The notes below the pieces were generated by a model. It was not told where the DNA came from. It searched no databases and saw nothing but the letters and a program-made list of their open reading frames with translations. The position numbers were made by a program, and so were the translations under genes. A DNA stretch of 64,000 nt, from NCBI GenBank assembly GCA_028281825.1, contig JANQJC010000100.1, positions 73,854 to 137,853 of the forward strand, written 5' to 3'. The DNA is from Flavobacteriales bacterium. Its GTDB lineage: Bacteria > Bacteroidota > Bacteroidia > JANQJC01. Below, in pieces: positions 27,125-43,795 of this stretch (its first letter is position 1; each line of letters opens with the position of its first letter).

Positions 27125-27934
27125 ATGATTGACAGGAGAAAGTGGTTTGTAATAGTATTTGGAACTGATACCAAAGAGGGTAAGCGTTTTGATATTATCC
27201 TGCTTTGGATGATTTTGTTTAGCGCCCTGGCTGTAATTCTTGAGAGTGTGCCCGAAATTGGAGGGGGCTATCATACCTTTTTTGTAGTATTGGAATGGGT
27301 TTTTACTGTATTTTTCTCATTTGAATATATTTTGAGAATATATATAAGCCCAAGGCCCCGCAGGTATATTTTCAGCATTTGGGGGCTTATAGACTTACTA
27401 TCCATTCTGCCAACATATCTTAGTTTAATATTTGCAGGGTATCATTATTTATTGATTGTCAGAGTATTCAGGCTTTTAAGGGTTTTCCGTGTACTGAAAT
27501 TGGTGCGGTTTAACAGGGAGGCACAAGGCCTTATACAAGCACTGAGGGCTAGTTCGTATAAAATTGGACTTTTTTTACTCACTATGTTAGCTATAGTGAC
27601 ACTAATGGGAACCGTAATGTATGTTGTTGAAGGAGAAGAAGAAGGTTTTAATAGTATCCCCCAGAGTATCTATTGGTCAATAGTAACAGTAACTACTGTT
27701 GGTTATGGAGATATGGTACCCCATACTGTTTTAGGTAAGTTTTTATCATCATTAGCAATGATTATTGGTTATGCTATTATAGCCGTACCTACAGGTATAG
27801 TTACAGTAGAAATGTCCAAATCGAGTAACAACACAAAAGAGTGCCCCCATTGCCAATATAGAAATTCGGTCAATGCGAAATATTGTAGTCATTGCGGCCA
27901 ATCATTAAATGAGAAAGAAGAATCAGTTGAGTGA
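27125..27934 (+). CDS. Voltage-gated-type K+ channel with C-terminal zinc ribbon
   Basis: This is a 269-residue ion channel with six membrane segments. The S4 voltage sensor has basic residues at every third position (R113, R116, R119, R122, K125, R128). The pore filter TVGYGD (191-196) is the K+ signature. After S6 (ending near 228) comes a short cytoplasmic tail with C240-x2-C243...C254-x2-C257 (CPHC and CSHC), a treble-clef/zinc-ribbon pattern unusual for bacterial Kv channels. The ATG at 27125 starts right before S1. The gene is monocistronic, and its end overlaps the convergent SGNH gene by 12 bp. Confidence 0.9.
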   Translation: MIDRRKWFVIVFGTDTKEGKRFDIILLWMILFSALAVILESVPEIGGGYHTFFVVLEWVFTVFFSFEYILRIYISPRPRRYIFSIWGLIDLLSILPTYLSLIFAGYHYLLIVRVFRLLRVFRVLKLVRFNREAQGLIQALRASSYKIGLFLLTMLAIVTLMGTVMYVVEGEEEGFNSIPQSIYWSIVTVTTVGYGDMVPHTVLGKFLSSLAMIIGYAIIAVPTGIVTVEMSKSSNNTKECPHCQYRNSVNAKYCSHCGQSLNEKEESVE

Positions 27935-29134
27935 GTGAGGGTTATAAACATCTTGCCATTTCTGGTAAATAGTGGCACCAATATGTTCATAGCCTTTTGC
28001 ACGCATGTGTTCATCATAATTCCAATAAAGATGGTCATTAACGGACTCTCTGAGTCTCACATTATCTGTTAAATCAAAAAATGTCATATTGTATTTGGCA
28101 CATTCTTCACCAAGGGCTTTTTGATGCTTTAGGTAATTGTTTGTGGTTAGGTCTATGCTATCATTACATAATTGAAGACACATTTGTTTGTCAAACTGAT
28201 AGTAATATCTTGTGACGACATTTCTGCTGGGCACATAAGCTATAATAGGTTCAACTCCATATCTTTTAGAGAAGTGGTTAAAAAATGGTATTATATCACC
28301 CAAAAGAGGTTCTTGCCCAAGTCTTGTTTTTTCTGTGTAAAGGTTGTTTATTCTAAATGGCGCGAGAGTGGAATTCAACATATGTTTCAATATATCTGCT
28401 CTTACCTGGTTGGCTACTTTACTGCTATCTATCTTCCATGCACCAAAGGCATTATTCTGATTAGGGATATATGAAACTGTGTTTGTATTCCATCTAAACT
28501 TGATAGGGCTGTTGAGTTTTATTTGTTCAATAAGTTCTAATAAACGCGGTCTCAACAGATTGAAGTATTGTGGGGTTAAAGTTCTCCCTGGCATTGTAGG
28601 AGGGCTTTGGGCGATGTCATTCGCATATATGCAAATGATTACATAGTCAGGCCTAAAGATTGGTATAAATTCAACCATTAGCCTCATATATGAAGTAGGT
28701 CCAGAACCTACCATCCCCCCATTCCATACTTCATAGTTTTTATCATTCAAAGCCCGTTCAAACGCTTTTGGAATTGTTTCATCTTGCCCAGCCATAATCC
28801 CTTCCACAAAGCTGTCGCCAATAAAGAGTATTCTTTTTTTTCCAACCTTTCTTTTTACTTTCCATTCCTTATCACGAAACCCATACATGTTCATTTTATG
28901 AATAAAGCGATGGTTGGTGTCTAATAGGCTTTCCCAATACCAAGTTTGGTTGCGCAGGTATTTGTATTGATGTGGATATTTTGAAAGCATCATATAATTG
29001 ACGCGATCAAAATTGCTCAATTCTGGAATAGGGAAACAAAAGCGAAGAGCGATTTCCTGAAAGGCCAAAACAGCAATGATGTATAGTACAGTTTTGGCAA
29101 GAATCTTTGATTTTCTGAGAGAAACGAACCCCAT
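27923..29134 (-). CDS. Membrane-anchored SGNH hydrolase (second of a tandem pair)
   Basis: This paralogue of the gene at 29170-30354 has one N-terminal membrane anchor (ILAKTVLYIIAVLAFQEIAL), then a shared segment CFPIPELSNFDRVNYM, then an SGNH/GDSL-type hydrolase. Block I is LFIGDSFVEGIM with the catalytic Ser, the GGMVGSG loop is block II, YANDIAQ is block III, and NYDEHMRAKGYEHIG is the Asp-His block V. The likely activity is removal or transfer of acyl (for example O-acetyl) groups on extracytoplasmic glycan, by family analogy. The frame is open to 29200, but ATG 29134 aligns with its paralogue and avoids overlap. It is the last gene of the leftward 35.9-27.9 kb operon. Confidence 0.82.
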   Translation of the reverse strand: MGFVSLRKSKILAKTVLYIIAVLAFQEIALRFCFPIPELSNFDRVNYMMLSKYPHQYKYLRNQTWYWESLLDTNHRFIHKMNMYGFRDKEWKVKRKVGKKRILFIGDSFVEGIMAGQDETIPKAFERALNDKNYEVWNGGMVGSGPTSYMRLMVEFIPIFRPDYVIICIYANDIAQSPPTMPGRTLTPQYFNLLRPRLLELIEQIKLNSPIKFRWNTNTVSYIPNQNNAFGAWKIDSSKVANQVRADILKHMLNSTLAPFRINNLYTEKTRLGQEPLLGDIIPFFNHFSKRYGVEPIIAYVPSRNVVTRYYYQFDKQMCLQLCNDSIDLTTNNYLKHQKALGEECAKYNMTFFDLTDNVRLRESVNDHLYWNYDEHMRAKGYEHIGATIYQKWQDVYNPHSLN

Positions 29135-29169
29135 GAAGGTTTCAAAGGTATCAAAATCTAATGCTTCGC

Positions 29170-30354
29170 TTAATCTGAAAGGACTTGAGTAGCCCGCCAT
29201 CTCTGATAAATGGCTTTGCCAAGGTACTCATACCCTTTAGCTCTCATGTGTTCGTCATAATTCCAGTACAAGTGGTCATTAATATCCTCTCTTAGTTTAA
29301 CGTCTTCTGTGAGGTCTATTAATGGTACATTATACTTAGCACATTCGAGCGCTAAGTCTTTTCTATGAAGTTGGTACTTTTCCTGGGTTAAATCTAAGGT
29401 GTCATTGCAATAAACCAGACACATGTCCTTGTCGTATTGATAGTAGTGTTTTGTGACAATACTCCTGCTCGGTATGTAAACAACATAGGGTTGTACATTG
29501 AATTTTTTGCAGAAATACTCGAAGAAAGGGAGTATTTCTCCAAGGTTAGGAGACTGGCCAAGTACTATACTCTCATAGTGAAGGTTGTTAACCCTAAATG
29601 GAGATATTTTTCCTTGTTTCATCTGCTCGGCTAACCTCGGCTTCACATGTTGACGTAAAAAGGCCTCTTTAGAATACCAGGGACTGGCTTCATGTTCATT
29701 AGAAGGTATGTAGGTTTTGCTTCCTAAACTCCACCTAAACTTAACAGGGCTGCCAAGCCTTATCTGATTTATTAGTTCCAGTAGTCGTGGCCTTTTTTTA
29801 TTGTAGTATTCAGGTGTGATATATGTTTCAGGTATTATGGGGTCGCGTTGAGATAGGTCGTTACCACTGATACATAGGAACAGGTAATCTGGTTTGAAAA
29901 TGGCGGTAGCGTCAGTTGATAACATGAGGTATGAGTCAATGCCAACACCCATCATTCCGCCATTCCAAACTTCATAGCTATCATCATTAAGTTCATTTTC
30001 AAATACTTTGGGAATTGATGACCCTTGTTCTGCCATTATGCCTTCAATAAAGCTATCCCCAACAAATAGTATTCTTTTCTTTCCGGGCTTTTTCTCAATC
30101 ATCCATTCTTTGTCGCGAAATCCATATCGATTCATTTTGTGAATGAATTGATGATTGGTATCAGGCTGACTTTCCCATGTCCAGGTTTGGTTTCTGAGGT
30201 AAACGTATTGATTCTTAAGTTTAGCCAATTTCATATAGTTCACCCGGTCAAAATTGCTCAACTCAGGAAGCGGAAAACAAAATCGTAGCATCAATTCCTG
30301 GAAAACAAGAATCGCAATAAGGTATAGCAGTATTTTAAAGATGGTCTTAAACAT
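29170..30354 (-). CDS. Membrane-anchored SGNH hydrolase (first of a tandem pair)
   Basis: This 394-residue protein begins MFKTIFKILLYLIAILVFQE, a signal anchor, so the catalytic domain faces the periplasm. The motifs are LFVGDSFIEGIM (Ser), NGGMMGVG, ISGNDLSQ (GxND) and NYDEHMRAKGYEYLG (D-x-H). The two tandem paralogues share many segments across their whole length, including CF-PELSNFDRVNYM and DHLYWNYDEHMRAKGYE, a clear local duplication with divergence in the middle. It lies 47 bases downstream of the membrane-TPR gene at 30402. Confidence 0.85.
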   Translation of the reverse strand: MFKTIFKILLYLIAILVFQELMLRFCFPLPELSNFDRVNYMKLAKLKNQYVYLRNQTWTWESQPDTNHQFIHKMNRYGFRDKEWMIEKKPGKKRILFVGDSFIEGIMAEQGSSIPKVFENELNDDSYEVWNGGMMGVGIDSYLMLSTDATAIFKPDYLFLCISGNDLSQRDPIIPETYITPEYYNKKRPRLLELINQIRLGSPVKFRWSLGSKTYIPSNEHEASPWYSKEAFLRQHVKPRLAEQMKQGKISPFRVNNLHYESIVLGQSPNLGEILPFFEYFCKKFNVQPYVVYIPSRSIVTKHYYQYDKDMCLVYCNDTLDLTQEKYQLHRKDLALECAKYNVPLIDLTEDVKLREDINDHLYWNYDEHMRAKGYEYLGKAIYQRWRATQVLSD

Positions 30355-30401: not shown

Positions 30402-32357
30402 CTAAGGCAGTAATTGAACTTTGAGTTCTTCAACATTTTCATTGGCTTGTAAACGTTCCAATATTTTTTTCACCAAATTGATGTCACTTGAATTGGATAT
30501 CAACAGGTAGTTTTCACAATATTTTTCAGCTTCGATAAAACTGTCGTTTTCAAGTGCGCATTTAATCAACAAGCGTAGTACGTCTGGGTTTTCCTTCAGG
30601 CCAAATGTATTGAGGAGTTGAAGCGCATTTTGGTGAGCTGTTTTTGAATTACCCATTTCTAAATTAAGCTGTGCCAAATAATACCAGTTGTCATAGTAAT
30701 CTGGAGAATAGTATAACGCTTTTTGAAAGTCAGTTTTAGCTTCGTCTAGTTGGTTTAGGACTTTCCATTTTACAATTGCATCATCGGTAAGTAATTCGGC
30801 ATACTTTCTATCAACTCCCACTTGTGCCATTGGTTTCAACTTTTGTAAAAGTTTCTCTTTTCTCTTGAGATACAAATCCACGTCAGCAGGTATCATGTTT
30901 AACGCATTAAGCATAAGCGAGGCTGAGTGTGCGTAATAGGTTTTATAAACATGGACTCCAACACTTTCTTGTCGATAGGATAATGAAAGGGTTTTGGCAT
31001 TTACTGCAAAAAGTGGAATTGCTAATATCCCTAATGAGCTAATACTAGTTAGTAAAGACGTTGGTAGCGTTTCATGTTGAATTTGCTTTACAATCACTAA
31101 CGTAAGAACCATGAATAGAGGAGTAGGAAATACAAACAAGTCCCAATCCATTGGCATTGACATAAGCGGATTGAACATGAAAAGAAAGGAGATAAGCAAT
31201 ATTAGCGTAACTAAGAGAATACTTAGAGTTGGAGACATGGATAGCTTTTTTCTATATAGTGTCAACGCAGACACAAAGATGAATAACAGACCTGGGGACC
31301 AATGAAGAATGGCATTAAGGAAATCAAAAATGTGATTCCAACTTTGTAAGTTGTAATTATCCAGGGGTGCCTCAGGTGCGATGATGGGTAGAAAGAGCCT
31401 CTCAATATCTGGAACGTCTCCATCTAAGAATCTCGGGTCGTTATAGTCTTTCAATATAAAGAAATACAAAACGAGTCCTACCAAGCAGGCTGGTATATAT
31501 AGCCATAGAACCAAACCTTTAAAGGTCAGGAGCTTTTTTATGGTTTTATTGTGTTGCCATCCCAAGGTTAAAAGTGTCAAAAAGAAAGAGGGAGCAATTA
31601 AATAAGATAAGGCATGAAACCGCATACCCAATAGTAAGAGAATAGCCATAGGGAGCATAAAAATTTGTTTTTTGGTCTCAATGGCTCTCACCAAAAAAAC
31701 AAAGTATCCCAGCAGAATAAGGTAAAGTGGGGCATACGTCTCTATATGCCCGAAAAAGATGAGGAAAAAGGGAGATGCAATTCCTGCCAGAGATAAAGCC
31801 AATTGCCATATTGGAATGGAAATATGGGCAACTACCAACCTTAACCATACCAAAACAAAAAGGCTTCCGCAGATAGCGTCAACCCATAAAAAGACTTTCT
31901 CATAGCTGCAATTGAAAGCATAAGCTGCAAGCGTGAAAAGATGAAATACGCCCCATCTGCCATTACCAGGCTCAACTTTAAAGTTCAACAAATCACCCCA
32001 AAACCCCTCAGGCAGGCTTTCTACCATTTGATTCAAGTAAGGTGTAAATGTTCTCGCATTACCATAGCTATCGCTAGCTATAGGAAAAGAATAACAAAAT
32101 AAACAGAATAGGGCACTTATTGCTAAGCTAACGACCCAATGGTTTAATGAAAACCGGCTTGGGTAATTGAGCTTTGGTTTTATGATAAAGCCCAGAAGAA
32201 TTAAGCCAAGTGCAATACCGAATAATAGAAAGTTATGTGGTGATGGTAAAAATGCGAGATGATGGGTTGCCCACCAATCATTGGGTGCAATCCATCCTAA
32301 AACAAAAGGAAGCACGAAGGCTAAGGCCAGCATCGATATTTTGTAGTGGGCTTTCAA
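30402..32357 (-). CDS. GT-C-like polytopic membrane protein with C-terminal helical repeats (family X, copy 2)
   Basis: This 651-residue protein has about 12 membrane segments followed by ~180 soluble residues with TPR-like helices. It shares a set of motifs with 32354-34336 and 56604-58580: NDWWATHHLAFLPSP at the N-terminus, SDSYGN (D96) in the first large loop, FFGHIETYAP (203-210), ILKDYNDPRFLDGDV, then NHIFDFLNAILHWSP, and NPLMSMPMDWDLF. The overall layout (polytopic, acidic residues in outer loops, TPR tail) is like GT-C glycosyltransferases, but I cannot match it to a named family. It starts at TTG 32357, giving a TTGA overlap with the upstream gene; ATG 32333 is an alternative. Confidence 0.8.
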   Translation of the reverse strand: MKAHYKISMLALAFVLPFVLGWIAPNDWWATHHLAFLPSPHNFLLFGIALGLILLGFIIKPKLNYPSRFSLNHWVVSLAISALFCLFCYSFPIASDSYGNARTFTPYLNQMVESLPEGFWGDLLNFKVEPGNGRWGVFHLFTLAAYAFNCSYEKVFLWVDAICGSLFVLVWLRLVVAHISIPIWQLALSLAGIASPFFLIFFGHIETYAPLYLILLGYFVFLVRAIETKKQIFMLPMAILLLLGMRFHALSYLIAPSFFLTLLTLGWQHNKTIKKLLTFKGLVLWLYIPACLVGLVLYFFILKDYNDPRFLDGDVPDIERLFLPIIAPEAPLDNYNLQSWNHIFDFLNAILHWSPGLLFIFVSALTLYRKKLSMSPTLSILLVTLILLISFLFMFNPLMSMPMDWDLFVFPTPLFMVLTLVIVKQIQHETLPTSLLTSISSLGILAIPLFAVNAKTLSLSYRQESVGVHVYKTYYAHSASLMLNALNMIPADVDLYLKRKEKLLQKLKPMAQVGVDRKYAELLTDDAIVKWKVLNQLDEAKTDFQKALYYSPDYYDNWYYLAQLNLEMGNSKTAHQNALQLLNTFGLKENPDVLRLLIKCALENDSFIEAEKYCENYLLISNSSDINLVKKILERLQANENVEELKVQLLP

Positions 32358-34336
32358 TTTTGAGCATTATTTGGGTTAGAAAACAGGTTAACCAATTGCT
32401 CCACGTTATCTTTATTGACCAACCTTTGGTGAACTTCTACTATCGTGCTGTCATCGGCTGCTAACTCGAGGTAACTGCTTGAGTGAGCTTCGGCTTGGTC
32501 ATAAAGTTCTGCGGCTAAAGCACAATGTATTAGCATTTCTAAAGATTTTTCTTCGCTAAGGTGTTTAAGTTCTGAAAGTTGTAGAGCGTTTTCATATGCA
32601 TTTTTGAATTTACCCAACTGAAAGTTGGTTTGCATTAAGTATAGCGTGATGGATTTATGTCCTGGAAAATATTGAGAGGCTTCAAGAAGGTAATTGTTGG
32701 CAGTTCTTATATCCTTATTAATGTTTATATGCCTCAGGGCATTATCATAAAGCATTTGTGCATAATGCAAATCTTTACCAACTAAGGCATAAGGCCTTAG
32801 TTGTGCGATAACAGCTTCATTTCTTTTAATAGAATTAAGAGGCGAACTATCCAGGTTGACTGCATGCCTTAAATACCTGTCTGCCCATATATGATAGGTT
32901 TTGAATATTCTAATTGAAAGACTTTCAAGGCGTTGGGAATAGGGATAACGAAACGCGTTAGTAATAAAGAATGAGGAGCTTAAAAGAGCCATTGCAATGG
33001 CTATTGGAAATAGTCTAAACGCAGGCACCTTTTTGTCTTCAACTTCCCTAACTACCAATGCCGCGAGTATGAGCAATAGTGGGGTTGGTATCACAAATAA
33101 ATCCCAGTCAATTGGCATGGACAGTAAAGGGTTAACGGCAAAAAAGAAGCCAGTATAAAGTACTAATGCAAGAATAACCATCAATATGGAAGGCTTCTCC
33201 CAATTGACTTTATTTTTGTGCCCTATCACTATTCCTATAATGACGATAAGAGCTACTGGCGACCATAAAAGAATGGCATTAAAAAAGTCAAAAATGTGAT
33301 TAAAGCTTTGAAGGTTGTATCTATCTAGAGGTGGGGCAGGAGATACAATGGGCAAGAATATTCGTTCAAAATCATGAGCGCCTTCAAGGGTTCTGGGGTC
33401 ATTATATTCACCAAGAATAAAGAAGTATAGAATCAGTCCTAACGCAAATATGGGAGCTAGGATGTAAACTGTAATTCCTTTAAGGCTAAATATCTTTTCG
33501 GTAAATTTTGAAGTAGCTTTAGTTTGAGCCAAAAAGACAATCAACCAGATAGGTATTAGTAATAATACAGTTTGGTGTATTTTCAACCCTATGAAGGTAA
33601 GTGGGATTAATAAGTATAGTATCCACTTTCTTCTTGTTTCTATTGCAGTAATCAGTAGTATCATCCAAGCCTCAAGTATCAAGAAAGTAGGTGCATACAT
33701 CTCAACATGACCAAAGAAAATCTGTAGGGCGGGGGCAGTGAGTCCAGCAATGGCCAGTATGGTTTTCCATAAAGTGTTTTGAATATTTCGGTGCACAAAA
33801 AGCAACCAGAAGAAAGCAAATAGGGAGCCGCAGAGAATGCCAATGGCAACAAATACCTGGTAATAGTTTATTTGAAAGGTGTAAGAAATCAGGTTTACCA
33901 AGGCTGACATGTTTAATCGTCCTGCGCTTGGGTTTATGTCAAAAGAAAAGAGGGGATTCAGGGAAACATCGCTTATTGATGATATGACCACACCAAGCAT
34001 CCCATCATACTCAAACGAATCTCCGTAATGATCTTCAAAAATCGGAAAGAGGTAAAAGGCAAATCCCATTAATATGGTGATTAATGGGATTATTATAAAG
34101 GCGGATAGCTTTTTTGTACCAACAATTTTTTTTAAGTATTTCTCCCATACATTGGAAAAGGAAGATAGAACAAGAAATGCACCAAATGTTAATAAACTAT
34201 ATTTGAATGGAGTTGGAAAGAAAGCCAAAAAGTGAGTTCCCCACCAATTGTCAGGATTAAATGTACCTATTAAATAAAAACTGAAGAATATCAATCCAAC
34301 AATTGAAAACAGGTATTTTGACTGTAATAACTTCAT
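32354..34336 (-). CDS. GT-C-like polytopic membrane protein with C-terminal helical repeats (family X, copy 1)
   Basis: This is a family X protein of 660 residues from ATG 34336; the start is set by alignment of MKLLQSKYLF with the paralogues' MKAHYKISML and MKVLRNTSLL, and it clears the 3' end of the GT39 gene. The frame is open to 34366. The motifs are NPDNWWGTHFLAFFPTP, EDHYGDSFEY, FFGHVEMYAPTF, ILGEYNDPRTLEG, then NHIFDFFNAILLWSP, and NPLLSMPIDWDLF. The soluble tail carries helical repeats (DYLLEASQYFPGHKSITLYL-like spacing). Position between a GT39 enzyme and a second family X copy in one operon supports a role in glycan transfer, which is inference. Confidence 0.8.
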   Translation of the reverse strand: MKLLQSKYLFSIVGLIFFSFYLIGTFNPDNWWGTHFLAFFPTPFKYSLLTFGAFLVLSSFSNVWEKYLKKIVGTKKLSAFIIIPLITILMGFAFYLFPIFEDHYGDSFEYDGMLGVVISSISDVSLNPLFSFDINPSAGRLNMSALVNLISYTFQINYYQVFVAIGILCGSLFAFFWLLFVHRNIQNTLWKTILAIAGLTAPALQIFFGHVEMYAPTFLILEAWMILLITAIETRRKWILYLLIPLTFIGLKIHQTVLLLIPIWLIVFLAQTKATSKFTEKIFSLKGITVYILAPIFALGLILYFFILGEYNDPRTLEGAHDFERIFLPIVSPAPPLDRYNLQSFNHIFDFFNAILLWSPVALIVIIGIVIGHKNKVNWEKPSILMVILALVLYTGFFFAVNPLLSMPIDWDLFVIPTPLLLILAALVVREVEDKKVPAFRLFPIAIAMALLSSSFFITNAFRYPYSQRLESLSIRIFKTYHIWADRYLRHAVNLDSSPLNSIKRNEAVIAQLRPYALVGKDLHYAQMLYDNALRHININKDIRTANNYLLEASQYFPGHKSITLYLMQTNFQLGKFKNAYENALQLSELKHLSEEKSLEMLIHCALAAELYDQAEAHSSSYLELAADDSTIVEVHQRLVNKDNVEQLVNLFSNPNNAQN

Positions 34337-34343
34337 TTTTTGC

Positions 34344-35948
34344 TTAATCCAGGCGTTGCCATACAAAGATGTTAAAATCGCCTTGAAGTTCTTTATTTCC
34401 TAGGTCAGCTCCCCATGTATACTCAGTTGGTCGGTTTAAATAAATATCAGCGGTACCTATTAGTTTATATTTCTGCGTTATATCATCATACCACCTAAAC
34501 AACTCTTGTTCAGCTGGATCTACTTTACTAACCCATGTTAGTGGGTGGTTGACTGCTACAAAAAACCTGGGCATTGAAGCTTCAACATCTCGTATAAAAG
34601 CCTGTTGCCTCTGATTTTGCTCAGGTGTCCCGTCAACAAGGTAAGGGCCAAAAAGGTGTGTGGTTGGCGCATGCAACCCAGAGTAAAAGTAGAGTTGCAT
34701 TTCGCCTCCATAAACTATCATTTGGTCACCTTCGTTGGCTAGTTCTTTTATTTGTGCCGCAATTAGTTTTGACTCTATAAAAGGATTGGAACCATAAACT
34801 TCTTTCATTATATTCTTATAGTCTGGATGAAAGTAGATGGAACGTTCGTTAGCTAGATGAAGTCCCATTAGCAGCACTAACACAATAGTGATTATAGAAG
34901 AGCTGGTGGATGAGTTAAATTTTCGGTTGGCGAGAACTAAAATCTCATTAAAGAAGAAGCCTATTAAAAGCGAGAAAGCAGGAAATAGGAACAAGAAATA
35001 GTGGCCATGAAAAGTAAGGCGGGGCAATATTGACAGGAACGAGAAAAAAGTAAAAATTCCAATTAAAACCTTGGTAACCTTATTTTTAGAGGGCATAAAA
35101 GAGAATACGCCAAGGATAGCAAGTATCCACCATATCCAATAACCCTGTAATATGTTGGGCATACTGGCTTTAAGTAGAATCCATCCTTGAGAAAGTGGAA
35201 CATCTTGTAAGTGGGCTGGGTATTGGAATACCCAGTAGAAGAATTCTTTACCAAGGCCATTTGCTGTTAAATATGTTACTAAAAGTAGTGTAGGAAAAAG
35301 GGTCAGGATGCCAAAAACAAAAGCCTGCTTGATAGTAAAAGCCCAAGATTTTTTGTCCACCCACTTGAGGTAGTAAATAAGGTATAAGCCGGCCGCCACA
35401 ATAAAGAAAGCACCATTTTGCTTTACAAAGAACGATAAGCCGAATGCTATAGCACTCAAGTAAACCAGCTTGGGCAACTTATCTTGAGTTGCTTTAATGA
35501 GCAGGTAAAGCGCCAAACATAGCCAGAATACTACCAAATGTTCAGATAGTACACTTAATCCACCTACGTGTGGGCCTAATGATAGTATAGCAAAACTGGC
35601 AGATGAGAATAGAGCAGCTATACTATTCCAAAGCTTTTTAGAAGCTAGAAACAGAAACACGATAGTAACCGTATTAATTAGTAAAAACCCAGTATGCAGG
35701 CCTATGTCAGTTTTGCCAAAAATGGCCATGATAAAGGCGTAAGTATAGAAAAGACCTGGGGGCTTAGGGTCGTAAAATGCTTCATATGGAAGTTGGCCTT
35801 CCAAAAGAAGGGAAGCAAAATAGGCGTATAACCCTTCATCGCGCTCAAAGGGAAAATCTAGAAAATTGAGGCGAATGATTACGACAATTATTAATAGCAC
35901 AGCCAAACCTGTGTATAATACTACCTTCTCGATGTTGGCCTTTTGCAT
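34344..35948 (-). CDS. GT39-like (PMT_2) membrane glycosyltransferase
   Basis: This GT-C glycosyltransferase has about 11 membrane segments. The first outer loop reads FPFERDEGLYAYFASLLLEG and continues PYEAFYDPKPPGLFYTY, the D-E motif and KPP signature of the ArnT/PMT_2 group that uses polyprenyl-phosphate sugar donors. A soluble C-terminal domain of ~150 residues follows. I start at ATG 35948 (MQKANIEKVVLY). The frame is open to 36026, which would overlap the divergent TMTC-like gene. It heads the five-gene leftward operon ending at 27923. Confidence 0.85.
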   Translation of the reverse strand: MQKANIEKVVLYTGLAVLLIIVVIIRLNFLDFPFERDEGLYAYFASLLLEGQLPYEAFYDPKPPGLFYTYAFIMAIFGKTDIGLHTGFLLINTVTIVFLFLASKKLWNSIAALFSSASFAILSLGPHVGGLSVLSEHLVVFWLCLALYLLIKATQDKLPKLVYLSAIAFGLSFFVKQNGAFFIVAAGLYLIYYLKWVDKKSWAFTIKQAFVFGILTLFPTLLLVTYLTANGLGKEFFYWVFQYPAHLQDVPLSQGWILLKASMPNILQGYWIWWILAILGVFSFMPSKNKVTKVLIGIFTFFSFLSILPRLTFHGHYFLFLFPAFSLLIGFFFNEILVLANRKFNSSTSSSIITIVLVLLMGLHLANERSIYFHPDYKNIMKEVYGSNPFIESKLIAAQIKELANEGDQMIVYGGEMQLYFYSGLHAPTTHLFGPYLVDGTPEQNQRQQAFIRDVEASMPRFFVAVNHPLTWVSKVDPAEQELFRWYDDITQKYKLIGTADIYLNRPTEYTWGADLGNKELQGDFNIFVWQRLD

Positions 35949-36019
35949 GGCTAAAAATAGCGGATTTAGAGTGATAGGAAAAATATTCAATAGTTTTACG
36001 AACCAGTCTCCTATTATCC

Positions 36020-37903
36020 ATGTCAAAAGAAAAGTTAGGTATTAAATCCCTTTTGATAGCACTCTTGGCAACTTTTGTGTGCTTCATACCTGTTTTGGAT
36101 AATGATTTTGTGAATTGGGACGACCACCTTTACGTGTTGCGAAATTGGATGGTGAAAGATATTTCTATCTCTCAATGCATCGAAGTATTTAAGACACCAC
36201 AGGTGGTTGGGGCCTACTATCCCCTGACCATTATTTCTCTTGGAATTGATTATGCATTAGGTAATGGTAGCCCTTTGCCGTTTCACATAACCAATTTGAC
36301 TTTGCACCTGTTATCTGTTATGCTGGTTTTTTGGCTTATCAAACTATTGACCAAAAGGGTAGAAGCAGCTTTTATTTGTGCATTATTATTTGGTATACAT
36401 CCAATGCACGTGGAACCAGTGGCCTGGATATCATCCAGGAAGGATGTGTTATATGGTTTCTTTTTTCTCTTGGCTTTGGTTACTCACGTTTATTATATCA
36501 CCAAAGGGAAAAAGTTGTTTTTTTATGTTCTAACTTTTATATGCTTCTTATTGTCCTTGCTTTCAAAAGGTGTGGCAGTGGTGTTACCCATTGTATTGCT
36601 GTTGATGGATTATCTGTGCCATAGGAATGATTATTGGAAAATAGTATTGGAGAAGGTCCCTTTATTTATTTTGAGCGTTGGTGTAGGCTTATTTGCAGTT
36701 CAAAGCCAACAGCAAGGAGACGCTATGCTGGATTTGAGTCAGTACCCCATTTACCACACCTTTTTTATTGCTAATTACAACTTTTTATGGTATTTGGTTA
36801 CCTTCTTTTTTCCATATAAACTGGCGGCTTTTCATCCCTATCCTTTTCTTAATGTTTCAGATATCCAATGGTATTTTTACGCTTCTATAATTCCAGTTAT
36901 CATTTTGCTGGTTTTGTTTTATAAGTACGGACGGAAAAGTAGACCATTTGTTTTTGGAATAGGTTTTTTCCTAGTCAGTATAGCTCCTGTGTTAAAAATA
37001 TTACCCTTTGGTGTAGGGATAGTCTCAGAGCGGTATACCTATATCTCATACCTTGGATTATTCTACCTTTTGGTAATTGCTTTTTTAAAGATAAGGGATG
37101 GAGAATGGAAAGTGCCGCATTGGGTGAGGTCGATAACATTCATGAGCGGTATTTTGTGGCTGGCAATTTTCGGAGTGATGAGTTACGTAAGGGCTGATGT
37201 ATGGCAAAATGGTGAAACGCTATGGACTGACGTAACTAAGAAGTACCCAAATAATTACTTTGCCTATAACAGTCTCGGTGACTATTGGCAATTGCAGGGG
37301 GAATATGAGAAGTCGCTAGAACCACTAAATCGGAGTATAGCGTTGAACCCAAATTACTCAGTAAGTTATAATCACAGGGGTAAGGCCTATCAAAACCTTG
37401 GGGAGTTTCAACTGGCTTTTTACGACTTTAATAAGGCGATTGAACTGGATAATACTTATCACAAGGCTTATTTGGGGAGAGCTATCATGTATGTGAATTT
37501 GGATAATGATACGCTTAATGCATGGAAAGACATCAATAGGGCATTGACTTTGGAGCCCAATTATTCTCTAGGCTATCTCAACAGGGCGGTGATATATGAA
37601 ATGAAGGGGATGTATGATAAAGCAGAAGAAGATTACACTATGGCTATTAACCTTGAACCCGATAATGCCAGAAATTACAGGTATAGGGGCTTGCTATACT
37701 ACAATCAAGGGCACCTTCAAGAGGCAATGAAGGATTACAACAGGGCTTTGTATTACAATCCTGAATATGGGAATGTTTATTTCCTTCGCTCATGGATATA
37801 TAGAGACAGGAACAAAGACGATTTGGCAAAGCAAGATGCTCTTAAAGCAAGGGAATTGGGCTTCCCGGTAGATGATGAGTATATAGAAAACCTCAATGAC
37901 TAA
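36020..37903 (+). CDS. TMTC-like O-mannosyltransferase-family protein (copy 1)
   Basis: This 627-residue protein has about 11 membrane segments (to ~415) and then about six TPR units (420-620). It matches the architecture and signatures of TMTC proteins, which O-mannosylate cadherins in animals. DNDFVNWDDHLYVLRN carries the DD catalytic motif (D34-D35) after the first helix, HPMHVEPVAWISSRKDVLYG is the long conserved loop, and SERYTYISYLGLFYLL is a later helix. Donor and acceptor are unknown here. It overlaps the next TMTC-like gene by 8 bp and starts the rightward four-gene operon. A weak -7 element, TAGTTTTA, lies at 35991-35998. Confidence 0.85.
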   Translation: MSKEKLGIKSLLIALLATFVCFIPVLDNDFVNWDDHLYVLRNWMVKDISISQCIEVFKTPQVVGAYYPLTIISLGIDYALGNGSPLPFHITNLTLHLLSVMLVFWLIKLLTKRVEAAFICALLFGIHPMHVEPVAWISSRKDVLYGFFFLLALVTHVYYITKGKKLFFYVLTFICFLLSLLSKGVAVVLPIVLLLMDYLCHRNDYWKIVLEKVPLFILSVGVGLFAVQSQQQGDAMLDLSQYPIYHTFFIANYNFLWYLVTFFFPYKLAAFHPYPFLNVSDIQWYFYASIIPVIILLVLFYKYGRKSRPFVFGIGFFLVSIAPVLKILPFGVGIVSERYTYISYLGLFYLLVIAFLKIRDGEWKVPHWVRSITFMSGILWLAIFGVMSYVRADVWQNGETLWTDVTKKYPNNYFAYNSLGDYWQLQGEYEKSLEPLNRSIALNPNYSVSYNHRGKAYQNLGEFQLAFYDFNKAIELDNTYHKAYLGRAIMYVNLDNDTLNAWKDINRALTLEPNYSLGYLNRAVIYEMKGMYDKAEEDYTMAINLEPDNARNYRYRGLLYYNQGHLQEAMKDYNRALYYNPEYGNVYFLRSWIYRDRNKDDLAKQDALKARELGFPVDDEYIENLND

Positions 37904-39779
37904 AAGTAGATTAAACATGGTGTTACTCTTGGTTGCTGTAGCAGCAACTTTTACCTGTTTTTATCCGACACTGGACAATGATTTTGTGAATTGGGATGAC
38001 CAAACATATGTTGTAAGGAATTGGTTGGTGAAGGATGTGAATTTGGAGTACATCAAGGAGATTATCAAAACTCCCCAAATAGTGGGCACTTATCAACCTG
38101 TAACCATCATTTCACTGGCTATTGATTACAAAATCGGAAATGGGAACCCTTTTCCTTTTCATGTTACCAACCTGGTGTTGCATCTTTTGTGTATGGCGAT
38201 ACTTTTTTGGTGGATGAAACTCCTTACCAAAAGAGTTGAAATTGCTTTTATCTGTGCTTTGCTATTTGGTATACACCCTATGCATGTGGAGCCTGTGGCG
38301 TGGGTTTCCTCACGTAAAGATGTGCTTTATGCATTTTTCTTTTTTGCGGCACTGGTGAGTTATATGTTTTACCTGACTAAGAAATGGAAGGGGGTAACTT
38401 ATAGTCTCACACTGCTTTTGTTTTTCCTATCCCTTATGTCCAAGAGTGTGGCTGTTGTTTTACCAATTGTGTTATTGTTAACAGATTACTTCCTTGAGAG
38501 AAAAGACTATAGGAGAATGTTGCTGGAGAAAGTGCCTTTCTTTCTATTGAGTTTGGGTGTTGGGCTAATTGCTATCCGAGGCCAGCAAGAAGGTTCCGCA
38601 ATGATGGATTTTGAAGTGTATCCATTTTCCAAGACCATTTTCGTTGGTTTTTACGGATTGGTCTGGTATCTGGTCTCCTTCTTGGTCCCTTATAAGTTAG
38701 CAGCGCTCCATCCTTATCCGTTTGACCATATTACCAATATCCAATGGTACTTCTATGCTTCGTCAGTACCTGTTCTTATCTTAATTATTCTATCTGTAAT
38801 TTATGGAAGAAAGAACAAACACTACATTTTCGGGATGGGATTCTTTTTATTGAGCATTGCTTCTCTATTGAAGATATTACCCTATGGCAGGGGAGTAGTG
38901 GCTGAGCGATACACCTATATTCCTTATATAGGGTTGTTTTACTTATTGGCTTGGATATTTATCAAATTTAAAGATGGAGATTGGAAGGTGCCCAAGTGGG
39001 CTAAAAAAATCTTGCTTGTTGTCAGTATTGTATGGGTTGGAACTTTAGGTATTATAACCTTCGTCCGCGCAGACGTGTGGCAGAATGGTGGAACTATGTG
39101 GCTGGATGTTACCGAAAAACACCCCGATCATTACTATGCCTATTCATGCGCGGGGGATTATTTCTTTCTGCAAGGGGAATACGAAAGAGCCTTTGAACTG
39201 ATGAACAAAAGCATCCAATTGTATGATAGTTTCTCAGATGTATACAACAATAGGGGAAAGGTATATGAGAAGTTGGGTTGGCCTGATTTGGCATTTGCTG
39301 ACTATAATAGAGCAGTAGACCTGGATAAGGCCAATTTTGGGGCTTATTTAAACCGTGCCATTCTTAAGGTCAACTTGTATAAGGACACAGAAGGAGCATG
39401 GCAAGATATTAACCAGGCTATAACTTTGAAACCCGATTACTGCATTGCTTATGTAAACAGGGGGGTGTTTTATGAGCAGAAAGGAGAGTTTGATAAAGCG
39501 GAAGAAGATTACACTATGGCAATTAAACTAGAACCCAATAATGCTAAGCACTACAGGTATAGAGGCCTTTTGAAGTATTATACCGACAGAAAGGAGGAAG
39601 CCTTAAAAGACTATAACGAGGCTTTGCGCTATGACCCCAATTATGGAAACGTATACTATTTACGTTCGAGAATATATAAAGACCAAGGCAATATAGAGCA
39701 AGCCCGATTGGATGCGAGAAAGGCACTTGAGCTAGGTTTCAAGGTAAAGCAGGAATACTTGGAAAGCCTTGGACTTTAA
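37896..39779 (+). CDS. TMTC-like O-mannosyltransferase-family protein (copy 2)
   Basis: This is a tandem paralogue of the preceding gene and of the same length (627 residues). The motifs are DNDFVNWDDQTYVVRN (DD), HPMHVEPVAWVSSRKDVLYA, LLKILPYGRGVVAERYTYIP, and a C-terminal TPR array ending in ARKALELGFKVKQEYL. The TPR array is closely similar to that of copy 1, for example FDKAEEDYTMAIKLEPNNAK against YDKAEEDYTMAINLEPDNAR, so the duplication is comparatively recent. The ATG sits inside copy 1's last codons, so the two are translationally coupled. Confidence 0.86.
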   Translation: MTKSRLNMVLLLVAVAATFTCFYPTLDNDFVNWDDQTYVVRNWLVKDVNLEYIKEIIKTPQIVGTYQPVTIISLAIDYKIGNGNPFPFHVTNLVLHLLCMAILFWWMKLLTKRVEIAFICALLFGIHPMHVEPVAWVSSRKDVLYAFFFFAALVSYMFYLTKKWKGVTYSLTLLLFFLSLMSKSVAVVLPIVLLLTDYFLERKDYRRMLLEKVPFFLLSLGVGLIAIRGQQEGSAMMDFEVYPFSKTIFVGFYGLVWYLVSFLVPYKLAALHPYPFDHITNIQWYFYASSVPVLILIILSVIYGRKNKHYIFGMGFFLLSIASLLKILPYGRGVVAERYTYIPYIGLFYLLAWIFIKFKDGDWKVPKWAKKILLVVSIVWVGTLGIITFVRADVWQNGGTMWLDVTEKHPDHYYAYSCAGDYFFLQGEYERAFELMNKSIQLYDSFSDVYNNRGKVYEKLGWPDLAFADYNRAVDLDKANFGAYLNRAILKVNLYKDTEGAWQDINQAITLKPDYCIAYVNRGVFYEQKGEFDKAEEDYTMAIKLEPNNAKHYRYRGLLKYYTDRKEEALKDYNEALRYDPNYGNVYYLRSRIYKDQGNIEQARLDARKALELGFKVKQEYLESLGL

Positions 39780-39827: not shown

Positions 39828-40718
39828 ATGAAAATTTTGGTAATAGGAGCATCTGGCTTAGTTGGTGGTAATTGTATGAATTACTTCAATAAAAAAGGCT
39901 GGGATGTACTCGGAACCCATTTTGGCTATGCTAATGATAACACCACCTATTTTAATACACTTGATTTAAACGACCCACAAAACGGAGATGTAAAGAGCTT
40001 TCAACCAGATGTAGTAGTGCACTGTGGCGCCTTAACCCATGTGGATTACTGTGAAGACCATGTTGATGAAAGTTTTCAAAAAACAGTGGTTTCTACTCAA
40101 AATGCAGTGAAGCTAGCGCAAGAGAGTGGTGCAAAGTTTGTCTTTTTTTCGACGGATTATGTGTTTGATGGCAAAAAAGGGTTTTATAGTGAAGAAGATG
40201 AAGTGAACCCTTTAAGTGTATATGGACAGCATAAACTAGACGCAGAAAAGGTGGTCCAAAATTCGGGTTTAAAACATGTAATCATTCGTATCACCAATGT
40301 TTATGGAGATGAAATACGTGGCAAGAATTTCATTGCCAGACTGATTGAAGTATCACTTAGTGGGGAACAGGCGGAGTGGAAAGTGCCCATCGACCAATAT
40401 GCCACACCAGTTAATGCTGCTGTTTTAGCTCAGGCACTTTACCTTATACTTAAAGATGATAAAACTGGGGTATACCATATTGGAAGTACAGATTATCTCA
40501 ATAGGTATCAATTGGCTATGCGGGTGAAGCAATACTTTCCATCAGAGAGTTTTGTGATAAAAGGGTTAACTACGGAGGAGCTTAATCAGAAGGCTGATAG
40601 GCCTTTGCTGGGAGGCTTTAATAATAATAAGTTTATTTCTGAGTATCCTGAGTTCATATTCTCTAATGTGGACGATTATCTAAGCGCTAAACTCGAGGAA
40701 GCAAAAAGCAATTCATAA
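39828..40718 (+). CDS. RmlD-like NAD(P)-dependent sugar-nucleotide reductase
   Basis: This 296-residue extended short-chain dehydrogenase has ILVIGASGLVGGNCMNYF (GxxGxxG nucleotide motif), the FFSTDYVFDGKKGFYSE stretch and YGQHKLDAEKVV (catalytic Tyr-x3-Lys), as in dTDP-4-dehydrorhamnose reductases. It is a generic member, so the exact sugar is uncertain; no rmlA, rmlB or rmlC is adjacent. It lies 48 bases after TMTC-like copy 2 and 2 bases before the DUF2723 gene, so it is a member of the same operon and likely provides or modifies the sugar used there. Confidence 0.85.
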   Translation: MKILVIGASGLVGGNCMNYFNKKGWDVLGTHFGYANDNTTYFNTLDLNDPQNGDVKSFQPDVVVHCGALTHVDYCEDHVDESFQKTVVSTQNAVKLAQESGAKFVFFSTDYVFDGKKGFYSEEDEVNPLSVYGQHKLDAEKVVQNSGLKHVIIRITNVYGDEIRGKNFIARLIEVSLSGEQAEWKVPIDQYATPVNAAVLAQALYLILKDDKTGVYHIGSTDYLNRYQLAMRVKQYFPSESFVIKGLTTEELNQKADRPLLGGFNNNKFISEYPEFIFSNVDDYLSAKLEEAKSNS

Positions 40719-40720
40719 AG

Positions 40721-43700
40721 ATGGATTTTAAGCGCTGGAATAGGATAACGGGGTGGGTGGTGTTTGCCATTACTTTTACTGTCTATCTTCTCACTGCGCA
40801 GAGAACTATCAGTTTTTGGGATAGCCCAGAGTTTATTTCGGCAGCATATAAGCTGCAAGTTTCTCACCCGCCTGGTGCGCCATTATATGCCATGCTTGCC
40901 AGAATATTTATGATGGTATTTCCAAAATCGATGGTGGCTTTTGCGGGGAGCTTGTTCTCGGTGGTATGCGCTGCATTTACTACCTTATTACTACATTTTA
41001 GCATTACGTGTATTGGACAGAGATTATTGGGAAAAAAGGAATTGACTACCAGTGAGAGTATTGCAATTTTAGCTAGTGGTCTTGTCGGCGGGTTATCTTT
41101 GGTATTTGCGCATAGCTATTGGGCGGCAGCTACTGAAGCTGAAGTATATACACTTTCATCAGTGCTCATGGCTGCGGCTTTTTGGTTGGCTTTGAAATGG
41201 GAAGTGGAAAGTGACTATGTAAATGCAGTAAGATGGTTGTTCTTGATAGCATTTATTCTTGGTTTGTCTGTGGGTGTACATATCATGAATTTTGCGGTTG
41301 TATTTCCAATAGCGATGATATTAGGCCTCAAGAAATACGGCTTTAACTGGAAAGGGGTATCTATTGCTTTTTTGTCAGGTTTGGCACTTTTCTTCTTGCT
41401 GAAAAGCATATTAGTAAATGGCTTTCTGGCGTTGGCTTCAAAACTTGAGTTAATGATGGTGAACAGTTTTGGGTTGCCATTCAATAGTGGCTTAATAGCA
41501 TCTATTCTAATTCTGGTTGGGCTTTTAGCGTTTGGGCTTTACTACACCAGGCAAAGAAGAAAGATAATGGCACACCACATTATATTGGCTATTGCCTTAT
41601 TTATGGTAGGGTGGTCATCATACGGTATGGCTTTGGTACGTTCCAAGCCCGACTTGGCTATTTCATCAGCGGCTGGTGACCCATTTAGGTTGAATGGCTA
41701 TTTGCAGGCCGACCAGTTTGATTTTAGCAATCGTGAGTTACTAAAAGGCCAGGTATACAATTCACCATTAGACCCTAAGAAACCCTTTTTGGATGGGGAT
41801 GAAGTATATGCCGCAAGCTATGAGCAAGGCAAGTACATAAGGACAAATGATGGAAAATATATGGTGGCTAATCGTGATAGCCGCTTTGATATGTTTTTTC
41901 CACGGGTATACAATGCAAGACCTATTAATGCGGATGGTTACAAACTTTGGGGACAGATAGAGGGCAGACCCCTGAGACATACTTTGAATGGTAACACTCA
42001 AACTATCCATAAGCCTACATTTGGAGAGAACCTGTATTATTTTTTCAAGTTTCAACTAGTGCACCTGAATTACAGATACCTGATGTGGAATTTTGCAGGC
42101 TCTCAAAACAGGGATTTTGATAGTGGAAATCCAATCAATGGCAATTGGATGAGTGGAATAGGGTTTGTTGATTTTCCAAGGGTGGGGAATACTGACATGA
42201 TTTCACCCAGAAATATGAATGTTAAGGATAAGAATAATTTTTACTTATTGCCCTTCTTGCTTGGTCTATTTGGGTTAGTGTTTCTTTATATAAAAGACAG
42301 AAAACTTGGAACTGTTACGCTGACTTTCTTTCTGGCTTTTGGTGTGGCCATTACCATTTTTATCAACCAGATGCCCATTCACTTGGCCATCAGAGATAGA
42401 GACTATATTTTCTTAGCGGCCTACTTTATGTTTTGCTTGTGGATAGGCTTAGGTGTATTGGGCTTGTTTAAATTGATACCTAAAATACAAGAGAATAACA
42501 TGAAGGCTATTCTGGTAGCTAGCCTGGCTCTCTTGGCTGTGCCAGTACAAATGGGTGCTAAAGGATGGGATGACCATGATAGGTCTGATGATGACTTTAT
42601 TTACAAATTGGGCAAAGCCTATTTAGATGGTTGCCCTGAAAATGCACTACTAATAACAGAAGGTGATAACGCTACTTTTCCATTATGGTATTTGCAAGAA
42701 GTAGAAGGTTATCGAACTGATGTGCGTGTGATTAATTATGAGTTGCTGAACTTGGACTCATATATTGAGAAACTAAAGAGGCAAATCAACGCTTCATTAC
42801 CTGTGAAGATGAGTTTGCCTGAAATCAGTTATGCAAAAGGGGTGGATAAGCTCTTACCACTGATAGATAAGGTAGAAGAAGGGGTTCATGCAGATATTGG
42901 GCAAATAGTAGAATACGCATCTTCTGATAAGAAGACTTTATGGAATGGTAGAAATATCAACTTTATTCCCACCACTCGGTTCAGCATGAGGGCCGATACC
43001 AACCTGTTGAGAGCAAGAGGCGTAGCACCGGAAAAGTACGGTTGTAAATTTGTGCCTGAGATACAGTGGGAATACGCTAAGGATTTCTATTCCATTGGAG
43101 ATTTGGTACTATTAGATATTCTTAATTCTAACCAATGGGAGCGACCAGTTTGCTTTGCCAATATTGATAATAATATACACCAAATGGGGTTAAGATGGTA
43201 TTTTTTGAAACGAGGAATGGTGAATGAATTGTTGCCTATGGCTCCAGGGGATGACAAAACAAGAGACCTTATGTTTGATATTGAAAACATGGCCAATGAG
43301 GTGATGAGCGACACTACTTTTGCTAATTTCAGTGATGTATCAAAGTATTACCCCATTGAAAGCAGGAGTATTGCCCGAAATATACTTAGGCATAACTATT
43401 TCTTCTTGGCGGATGCCTATCTGGAAGTGAGAGACTCTGCAGCTGTGGGGCAAGTACTCGACCAATGTCTGAAAATGATGCCAGATACAACTGTGGAGTT
43501 CAGAAAATATATGTTTGACATTGGGAAAACCTACTATAAAATCAATGAGCGGGAAAAGGCCAGAACGGTAATCAATAAATTGGTGGATAACCTGTTTATT
43601 GAAACGCATCATTTTTTATCATTTACACCTGCTAACGTATGGATAACAAGAAAGCATATAGAGGGTAATATGTCTATTCTTGAAGTGTTAGTGAGAGAAT

Positions 43701-43795
43701 TGGAAACTCGCGACAAAGAGTTGTCTGTTCCTGTAAAATCAAAGTATGAAATGCTTGAACGGGAAAAGCAGGCATGGATAAGCCAGCACTTTTAG
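40721..43795 (+). CDS. DUF2723 / GT117 family protein (TMEM260-like O-glycosyltransferase)
   Basis: This 1024-residue protein has about 12 membrane segments (to ~600) and then a ~400-residue extracytoplasmic or cytosol-facing domain with helical repeats at the end. The N-terminal RTISFWDSPEFISAAYKLQV (D34, E37) and HPPGAPLYAMLARIFMMVFP are the defining motifs of DUF2723, the bacterial relatives of animal TMEM260, an O-mannosyltransferase. The second half contains NALLITEGDNATFPLWYLQE and RGVAPEKYGCKF, also conserved in the family. It is the last gene of the 36.0-43.8 kb operon and ends 4 bp inside the convergent GT2 gene. Confidence 0.92.
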   Translation: MDFKRWNRITGWVVFAITFTVYLLTAQRTISFWDSPEFISAAYKLQVSHPPGAPLYAMLARIFMMVFPKSMVAFAGSLFSVVCAAFTTLLLHFSITCIGQRLLGKKELTTSESIAILASGLVGGLSLVFAHSYWAAATEAEVYTLSSVLMAAAFWLALKWEVESDYVNAVRWLFLIAFILGLSVGVHIMNFAVVFPIAMILGLKKYGFNWKGVSIAFLSGLALFFLLKSILVNGFLALASKLELMMVNSFGLPFNSGLIASILILVGLLAFGLYYTRQRRKIMAHHIILAIALFMVGWSSYGMALVRSKPDLAISSAAGDPFRLNGYLQADQFDFSNRELLKGQVYNSPLDPKKPFLDGDEVYAASYEQGKYIRTNDGKYMVANRDSRFDMFFPRVYNARPINADGYKLWGQIEGRPLRHTLNGNTQTIHKPTFGENLYYFFKFQLVHLNYRYLMWNFAGSQNRDFDSGNPINGNWMSGIGFVDFPRVGNTDMISPRNMNVKDKNNFYLLPFLLGLFGLVFLYIKDRKLGTVTLTFFLAFGVAITIFINQMPIHLAIRDRDYIFLAAYFMFCLWIGLGVLGLFKLIPKIQENNMKAILVASLALLAVPVQMGAKGWDDHDRSDDDFIYKLGKAYLDGCPENALLITEGDNATFPLWYLQEVEGYRTDVRVINYELLNLDSYIEKLKRQINASLPVKMSLPEISYAKGVDKLLPLIDKVEEGVHADIGQIVEYASSDKKTLWNGRNINFIPTTRFSMRADTNLLRARGVAPEKYGCKFVPEIQWEYAKDFYSIGDLVLLDILNSNQWERPVCFANIDNNIHQMGLRWYFLKRGMVNELLPMAPGDDKTRDLMFDIENMANEVMSDTTFANFSDVSKYYPIESRSIARNILRHNYFFLADAYLEVRDSAAVGQVLDQCLKMMPDTTVEFRKYMFDIGKTYYKINEREKARTVINKLVDNLFIETHHFLSFTPANVWITRKHIEGNMSILEVLVRELETRDKELSVPVKSKYEMLEREKQAWISQHF

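Follow-up and report, generated by a model that had tools for sequence, protein, structure and literature searches.

An unnamed family of TPR-tailed membrane proteins with a predicted GT-C glycosyltransferase fold in Bacteroidota

The window analysed here, a stretch of 64,000 nucleotides from a Flavobacteriales bacterium (GenBank assembly GCA_028281825.1, contig JANQJC010000100.1, positions 73,854 to 137,853), contains three genes for related membrane proteins, designated copies A, B and C. All three are intact genes of the minus strand:

32354-34336, minus strand: copy A, 660 amino acids from ATG or 670 from an upstream TTG; predicted glycosyltransferase type C (GT-C) membrane domain at residues 1-482, followed by a periplasmic tail of tetratricopeptide repeats (TPR); Asp106 of the predicted catalytic site present
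30402-32333, minus strand: copy B, 643 amino acids from ATG or 651 from TTG; tandem paralogue of A with the sequence YGNA, containing Asn instead of the catalytic Asp
56604-58580, minus strand: copy C, 658 amino acids; paralogue from another subclade, with the Asp present

Copy B shares 35% identity with A and 31% with C, and a search of the same genome with A returned B (E = 2.7e-121) and C (E = 7.0e-110); no fourth copy was found in this genome (search of 4.02 Mb). A sequence-only reading of the window had described three related membrane proteins, two in tandem and one at 56.6 kb, and the open reading frames and their paralogy (about 31-35% identity) bear this out.

The family is uncommon. 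It was found in three of 40 relatives, the genome of the window being one of the three, and in 11 of 395 genomes of a class sample with matches beyond the TPR part; two of the 13 initial positives (G026 and G254) were dropped, their only match being located within TPR positions 527-626. A further 11 loci were found in named genomes, mostly of uncultured Bacteroidota and one of Aquimarina, whose record (L039) carries two copies. A phylum-wide sample of 395 genomes contains distant members (about 18-25% identity) in seven, the window genome having been dropped from the eight initial positives. No family match was found in a plasmid search. A full family member is also present on a contig labelled Acidobacteria (L036) and branches within the Bacteroidota sequences in the tree; candidate explanations are transfer and mis-binning. 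At one locus (L021, G053:C61:9266-10990) the family match contains two in-frame stops, and its open frame of 568 amino acids lacks most of the TPR tail.

Motifs FFG-x-x-E-x-YAP, YNDPR, NH-x-FD-x-x-N and NPL-x-SMP-x-D-x-DLF are common to A, B and C, and a first motif is represented by YGDS in A and C and by YGNA in B. All five motifs proposed from the sequence alone are present in the three copies, but the NDPR loop, judging from the alignment columns, is not a motif of the wider family: 24 of 28 closer members have its Asp, 11 its Asn and 15 its Pro, and the Asp is absent from all nine distant members. Position 106 (numbering from the ATG of copy A), the Asp of YGD, is occupied by Asp in 22, Asn in five and Glu in one of the 28 closer members, and by Asp in all nine distant members. 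Residues G105, H347 and D410 are invariant in 37 members, of which 90% or more also keep W32, G209, E212, Y214, F327, L328, Y340, D350, D412 and R469. In an alignment of 26 members, W32, G105, Y304, F327, Y340, H347, D350, W358, F399, N402, P403, D410 and D412 are invariant. Arg469, found in 26 of the 28 closer and eight of the nine distant members, may be a phosphate-binding Arg similar to that of other GT-C enzymes.

Pfam and NCBIfam searches with 26 members gave no family match to the membrane part, only TPR families and, in individual members, sporadic matches below threshold, in agreement with the sequence-only reading, which had matched the proteins to no Pfam family it knew. The TPR-like tail, also proposed there, is present though weak by profile, TPR_19 being above the cut-off in B (4.1e-6) and below it in A and C. 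The membrane-part profile had no match among PDB sequences at E up to 10, no PMT/PMT_2 Pfam match to the family exceeded the curated cut-off, and no TMTC Pfam domain was detected at E up to 0.1 in the 26 members. A description of the family was not found in the literature, in a search limited to open-licence PubMed Central.

A GT-C fold of the membrane part is well supported by structure prediction. The full model of A has a pLDDT of 91.1 and a pTM of 0.90, and the model of its membrane part alone, based on 37 sequences, has values of 92.9 and 0.94. In the VIA-align comparison of the membrane part, rows 1-45 are all GT-C proteins, with Z of 17.1 to 7.1 over 208-351 aligned residues, including STT3, Pmt1/2, AftB, ALG12, ArnT, EmbA/B, PglB, DPY19 and PIG-U of the GPI transamidase, while row 46 is an unrelated protein with Z of 6.0 over 51 residues. 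The fold assignment is based on this gap between rows 45 and 46 and not on any single Z, and it leaves room for fold families beyond those that VIA-align lists. Individual alignments were obtained with STT3 (8agc_A; Z 17.1, 322 residues, 5.2 Å), Pmt (6p25_B; Z 15.9, 317 residues, 4.4 Å), AftB (9dlh; Z 15.6, 298 residues, 4.7 Å), ArnT (5f15; Z 14.8, 309 residues, 4.5 Å), EmbA/B (Z 14.1), AftA (Z 9.8) and AftD (Z 9.6). The top rows for the full model of A were STT3, ArnT, ALG9, Pmt4, PglB and DPY19. In Foldseek, TPR chains dominated the search with the full model, the first GT-C protein appearing at rank 17, and the membrane part was then folded and searched alone; its E values were weak (best 3.5e-3), yet the eight best matches were all GT-C proteins, PglB being the best. 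The GT-C reading made from the sequence is thus upheld by the AlphaFold model of the membrane part, and no clear match to a non-transferase family turned up. Relative to Pfam and NCBIfam, this is an unnamed family within the well-known GT-C superfamily.

The three best VIA-align rows are STT3 chains, and together with the Foldseek result they could point to an oligosaccharyltransferase-like activity, in which a whole glycan linked to a lipid diphosphate would be moved, as STT3 and PglB do. Such an activity is very unlikely, with rows within Z 1 to 2.5 including Pmt, AftB, ALG12 and ArnT, enzymes that use monophosphate donors, and with a C-terminal part composed of TPR and not of the STT3 soluble domain.

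The model of A contains 13 membrane helices, by the helix list and loop charges, instead of the roughly 12 segments counted from the sequence. The GT-C alignment covers model residues of about 70-470, so that the first two helices (9-26 and 42-58), the connecting loop of which carries conserved W32, are additions to the GT-C core. Juxtamembrane helices 105-110 and 123-130 follow transmembrane helix 79-96 in the first outer loop. In 26 members, Lys and Arg account for 14-26% of residues in all but one of the seven inner-called segments and for 0-9% in the six outer loops that precede the last one. The predicted topology places the N-terminus inside and the loops with W32, YGD, FFGxxE, residues 308-344 and NPLLSMPxDWD, together with the TPR tail, outside, in the putative periplasm, the side on which GT-C enzymes act.

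According to an excerpt of PMC12041299, all GT-CA enzymes have an Asp at the tip of the first juxtamembrane helix, and this residue is essential. In the model of A, Asp106 is located at the first turn of helix 105-110, directly after the transmembrane helix, which would place it at the catalytic site of GT-CA enzymes. This Asp is present in A and C and absent from B. Catalysis by acidic residues near outer loops, as suggested from the sequence, is consistent with this position at the helix tip, but does not extend in the same form to copy B. Asn is found at position 106 in B, L023, L028, L034 and L055, as well as in L125, a fragment at a contig end. All six genomes with an Asn copy (G000, G053, G199, G305, G306 and G730) also contain one or more Asp copies; G730 has a single Asn copy and four with Asp. 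In the tree, the Asn rows require two changes, inside a 10-row group which also includes A (support 96/90). Copy B could be either an inactive partner or a user of another residue. The Asn in B and in four other members, and the presence of an Asp copy in every genome with an Asn copy, are also what would be seen with a GT-C-shaped scaffold without catalysis, like PIG-U. This explanation is most plausible for copy B; overall it is improbable, since the Asn copies keep H347, D410, D350 and E/D212, which a dead scaffold need not keep.

The fold suggests that the family very probably consists of periplasmic transferases using a polyprenyl-phosphate sugar, with both the transferase activity and the type of donor indicated by structural likeness. 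Copies A and C would be GT-C glycosyltransferases (GT-CA type) of the inner membrane with the active site facing the periplasm, and would move one sugar from a polyprenyl-monophosphate carrier onto an extracytoplasmic acceptor. Asp106, in its place at the tip of the first juxtamembrane helix, would serve as the catalytic base or nucleophile, Glu212, His347, Asp350, Asp410, Asp412 and Arg469 would line the donor and phosphate site, and the periplasmic TPR tail would probably hold either the acceptor or a partner. Copy B carries Asn106 and is probably a partner of A whose activity is altered or lost.

Several observations weigh against the assignment to transferases. The catalytic Asp is replaced by Asn in B and four of the 27 other closer members, and by Glu in one. 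The sequences match no glycosyltransferase that has a solved structure or a Pfam or NCBIfam model, and a shared fold does not prove activity, as PIG-U has the GT-C fold and is itself among the rows. In the topology, the inner-called segment 377-383 contains more acidic than basic residues, and the outer-called stretch 462-482 contains 15% Lys and Arg. Finally, matches to DprE1-like or UbiA-type proteins of the arabinose-donor pathway, considered below, are absent from three of the 11 positive genomes of the class sample (G053, G199 and G306, nearly complete).

The genes adjoining the three copies in the window, and the nearby genes for secreted proteins, are as follows:

34344-36026, minus strand: PMT_2-type GT-C protein, directly upstream of A with a gap of 7 bp
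29170-30354, minus strand: SGNH/GDSL hydrolase with an N-terminal hydrophobic segment, 47 bp after B
27923-29200, minus strand: second SGNH/GDSL hydrolase, overlapping the first
58577-59941, minus strand: FAD amine-oxidase-like protein, its gene sharing 4 bp with C; L053 and L056 contain this pair as well
59948-60961, minus strand: membrane protein of 337 amino acids without a Pfam match; adjoins family members in six of 28 loci and is present in the UbiA-DprE1/E2 run of L057
49769-51745, 51782-53749 and 53753-55765, minus strand: three secreted proteins encoded in tandem, each combining YadA-head repeats with a Peptidase_S74 domain at the C-terminus

The PMT_2 protein, A, B and the two SGNH hydrolases form a same-strand run with gaps of 7, 20, 47 and -31 bp (the A-B gap of 20 bp being counted from the ATG starts). 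Copy C is the last of three genes, after the 337-residue membrane protein and the FAD oxidase, with gaps of 6 and -4 bp. An ion-channel protein (PF00520) with a C-terminal zinc ribbon is encoded beside the SGNH genes (27125-27934). Four TMTC-like GT-C/TPR proteins are encoded in two head-to-tail pairs (36020-39779 and 44857-48589), along with a TMEM260-like protein (40721-43795), a GT2 protein (43792-44856) and an RmlD-type reductase (39828-40718), and this stretch is an unusually dense glycosylation region.

For the four TMTC-like proteins of the window, Pfam gives only TPR and sub-threshold families; as a TMTC Pfam domain is absent from these proteins and from the family alike, the neighbours are called TMTC-like by their architecture and motifs. 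In the TMTC-like group, WDD is present in six of 13 and ERxxY in five of 13 proteins, while patterns similar to WDD, HPMHVE, RKD and ERxxY, shaped on the TMTC-like proteins of the window, were found in none of 37 family open reading frames. Profile-profile comparison of the membrane part with these neighbours gave a probability of 93.4 (P 2.5e-7) over 322 columns, against 0.7 for the reversed control and at most 22.5 for 20 block-shuffled ones; a control with UbiA membrane proteins comprised two proteins and is weak. With a three-sequence PMT_2 profile, the comparison was collinear over 320 columns with a probability of only 15.8. TMTC1-4 are described in an excerpt of PMC7801869 as GT-C O-mannosyltransferases with a TPR tail and the motifs DD in external loop EL1, RxD in EL2 and ERxxY in EL5. 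The family resembles them in its GT-C membrane domain, cytoplasmic N-terminus, luminal or periplasmic TPR tail and acidic motif in the first outer loop, and differs in two extra N-terminal helices and its own motif set.

A survey of neighbours covered 28 loci, several of them pieces of one region and seven with distant members. Genes shared between loci encode YadA-head proteins (nine loci), TMTC-like proteins (eight), the 337-residue membrane protein (six) and SGNH hydrolases (four). In loci L053, L038, L057 and L062, open reading frames of about 660 amino acids form a conserved GT-C neighbour with PAP2/vanadium-haloperoxidase-like matches (PF22778 and DUF6851; PAP2 in L057).

Genes for a UbiA-type phosphoribosyltransferase, DprE1-like and DprE2-like proteins and a HAD phosphatase flank or separate the family members in L035, L039 and L040, and L057 contains a DprE1-DprE2 fusion and UbiA. 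The assignment was made with arabinose-gene profiles for L039 and L057 and by clustering for the other loci; the DprE1 and DprE2 profile scores were all under the NCBI cut-offs, and 'DprE1-like' therefore denotes similarity and not an equivalog call. The DprE1-like cluster includes two long proteins, L057:12626-14647 (673 amino acids), which is the DprE1-DprE2 fusion by NCBIfam, and L118:9070-11157 (695 amino acids), which is similar by length. According to an excerpt of PMC11127046, the same gene set supplies polyprenyl-linked ribofuranose and, with DprE1/E2, arabinofuranose to periplasmic GT-C enzymes. In the window genome, genes for UbiA, DprE1-like and DprE2-like proteins, a HAD phosphatase and a PMT_2 GT-C protein are found in one run on another contig, C12 (L117:10113-15226), which by its gene content is a putative polyprenyl-arabinose operon in a Bacteroidota genome. 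No flippase for a pentofuranose three-component system was identified. The polytopic 337-residue membrane protein (59948-60961), co-linear with UbiA-DprE1/E2 in L057, might be the flippase lacking from the set, or an enzyme that modifies the donor.

This gene content suggests that the family might be the GT-C component of an arabinofuranose 'three-component' system, transferring a pentofuranose from polyprenyl-phospho-arabinose onto surface proteins of the YadA-head type. Besides the four loci and the full set on contig C12, the identity of the gene set with the pathway in the excerpt of PMC11127046 and the presence of AftB among the best fold matches are consistent with it. In the class sample, a DprE1-like gene is present in eight of 11 family-positive and 51 of 384 other genomes (Fisher p 1.8e-5, kinship uncorrected), or in seven of nine versus 24 of 188 genera, and further genomes contain it in five of six cases. 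Arabinose genes adjoin family members in two of 11 lineages versus 0.10 expected (p 0.004; near-base figures estimated by hand from contig coordinates, three syntenic flavobacterial genomes counted as one lineage). Distant members in the phylum sample show no DprE1-like enrichment (two of seven versus 80 of 388 genomes); UbiA-type genes are present in all seven genomes with distant members, a count of positives only, without a background rate. The genome test ignores kinship, several taxonomic families with positive genomes carry DprE1 without the GT-C family, and the three exceptional genomes named above contain neither DprE1 nor UbiA matches. Moreover, a PMT_2 protein, and not a member of this family, comes after the operon in the window genome and in G012, and the L040 operon is co-linear with a TMTC-like gene, so that these proteins may be the users. 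On account of the exceptions, the null result in distant members, kinship and the alternative GT-C users, the arabinose reading is considered doubtful, and the general polyprenyl-phosphate reading keeps its high probability. A pentofuranose (arabinofuranose) donor in part of the family, with a surface glycan or a YadA-head surface protein as acceptor, is a weaker suggestion than the transferase assignment.

Another source of the donor might be a GT2 synthase of the DPM/GtrB type, providing a polyprenyl-phospho-hexose which the FAD oxidase beside C would remodel. GT2 and FAD oxidase genes precede a copy-C-type gene in L056, the same three gene types are found in L053, and the genomes of this trio (G053 and G199) are without arabinose genes; the overlap of the FAD oxidase gene with copy C also fits. 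As GT2 enzymes are common and the trio occurs in two loci only, a hexose donor of this origin is rather unlikely.

The YadA-head surface proteins, which are frequent neighbours of the family, are possible acceptors. Peptidase_S74 has 17 matches in the window genome; because such proteins are common in these genomes, their adjacency was tested. Among 12 genomes searched, two without any S74 match were left out; eight S74 proteins are near a family gene versus 0.65 expected, with at least one in five of 10 genomes (p 2.6e-5; near-base figures estimated from contig coordinates). The YadA-head proteins were rejected as general O-glycosylation substrates: the general Bacteroidota motif D-[ST]-[AILVMT], given in an excerpt of PMC12871550, was enriched in none of 12 proteins relative to shuffles, 96 of 500 shuffles reaching the observed count in the best case. 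A Bacteroidota system adding arabinofuranose, or a related pentofuranose, to YadA-head fibres by a pair of active and Asn-containing GT-C proteins, with the TPR tails presenting the acceptor, is quite unlikely on present evidence.

ArnT belongs to GT83 and PMT to GT39. The family shares the GT-CA fold with both (Z of 14.8 over 309 and 15.9 over 317 residues, respectively), but has no Pfam PMT/PMT_2 match. It is similar to the mycobacterial arabinosyltransferases AftB, EmbA/B, AftA and AftD in the fold, the Asp at the tip of juxtamembrane helix 1 and, in some loci, the linked arabinose-donor genes, but sequence similarity is not detectable, and the TPR tail of the family contrasts with their carbohydrate-binding domain. 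GT136 (ORF12) of the Citrobacter pentofuranose three-component system, as presented in the excerpt of PMC11127046, has 11 membrane helices in its model, and the family resembles it in the GT-C fold, the C-terminal periplasmic domain and similar donor genes in four loci; this comparison, made by description and not by sequence, also shows a carbohydrate-binding module in GT136 instead of TPR.

The family adds a member, unnamed in Pfam and NCBIfam, to the GT-C superfamily, with precise residues to probe, and the repeated occurrence of an Asn copy alongside Asp copies provides a natural experiment on the role of this residue. Four loci tie TPR-tailed GT-C enzymes to polyprenyl-arabinose genes, the chemistry of which is best known from mycobacteria, where DprE1 is a known drug target; if the arabinose link is true, DprE1 would have a role in protein or surface glycans in Bacteroidota. 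If arabinofuranose is indeed added to YadA-head proteins, the system would represent a second bacterial route of protein arabinosylation, beside that of the arabinosylated Pseudomonas pilin with TfpW.

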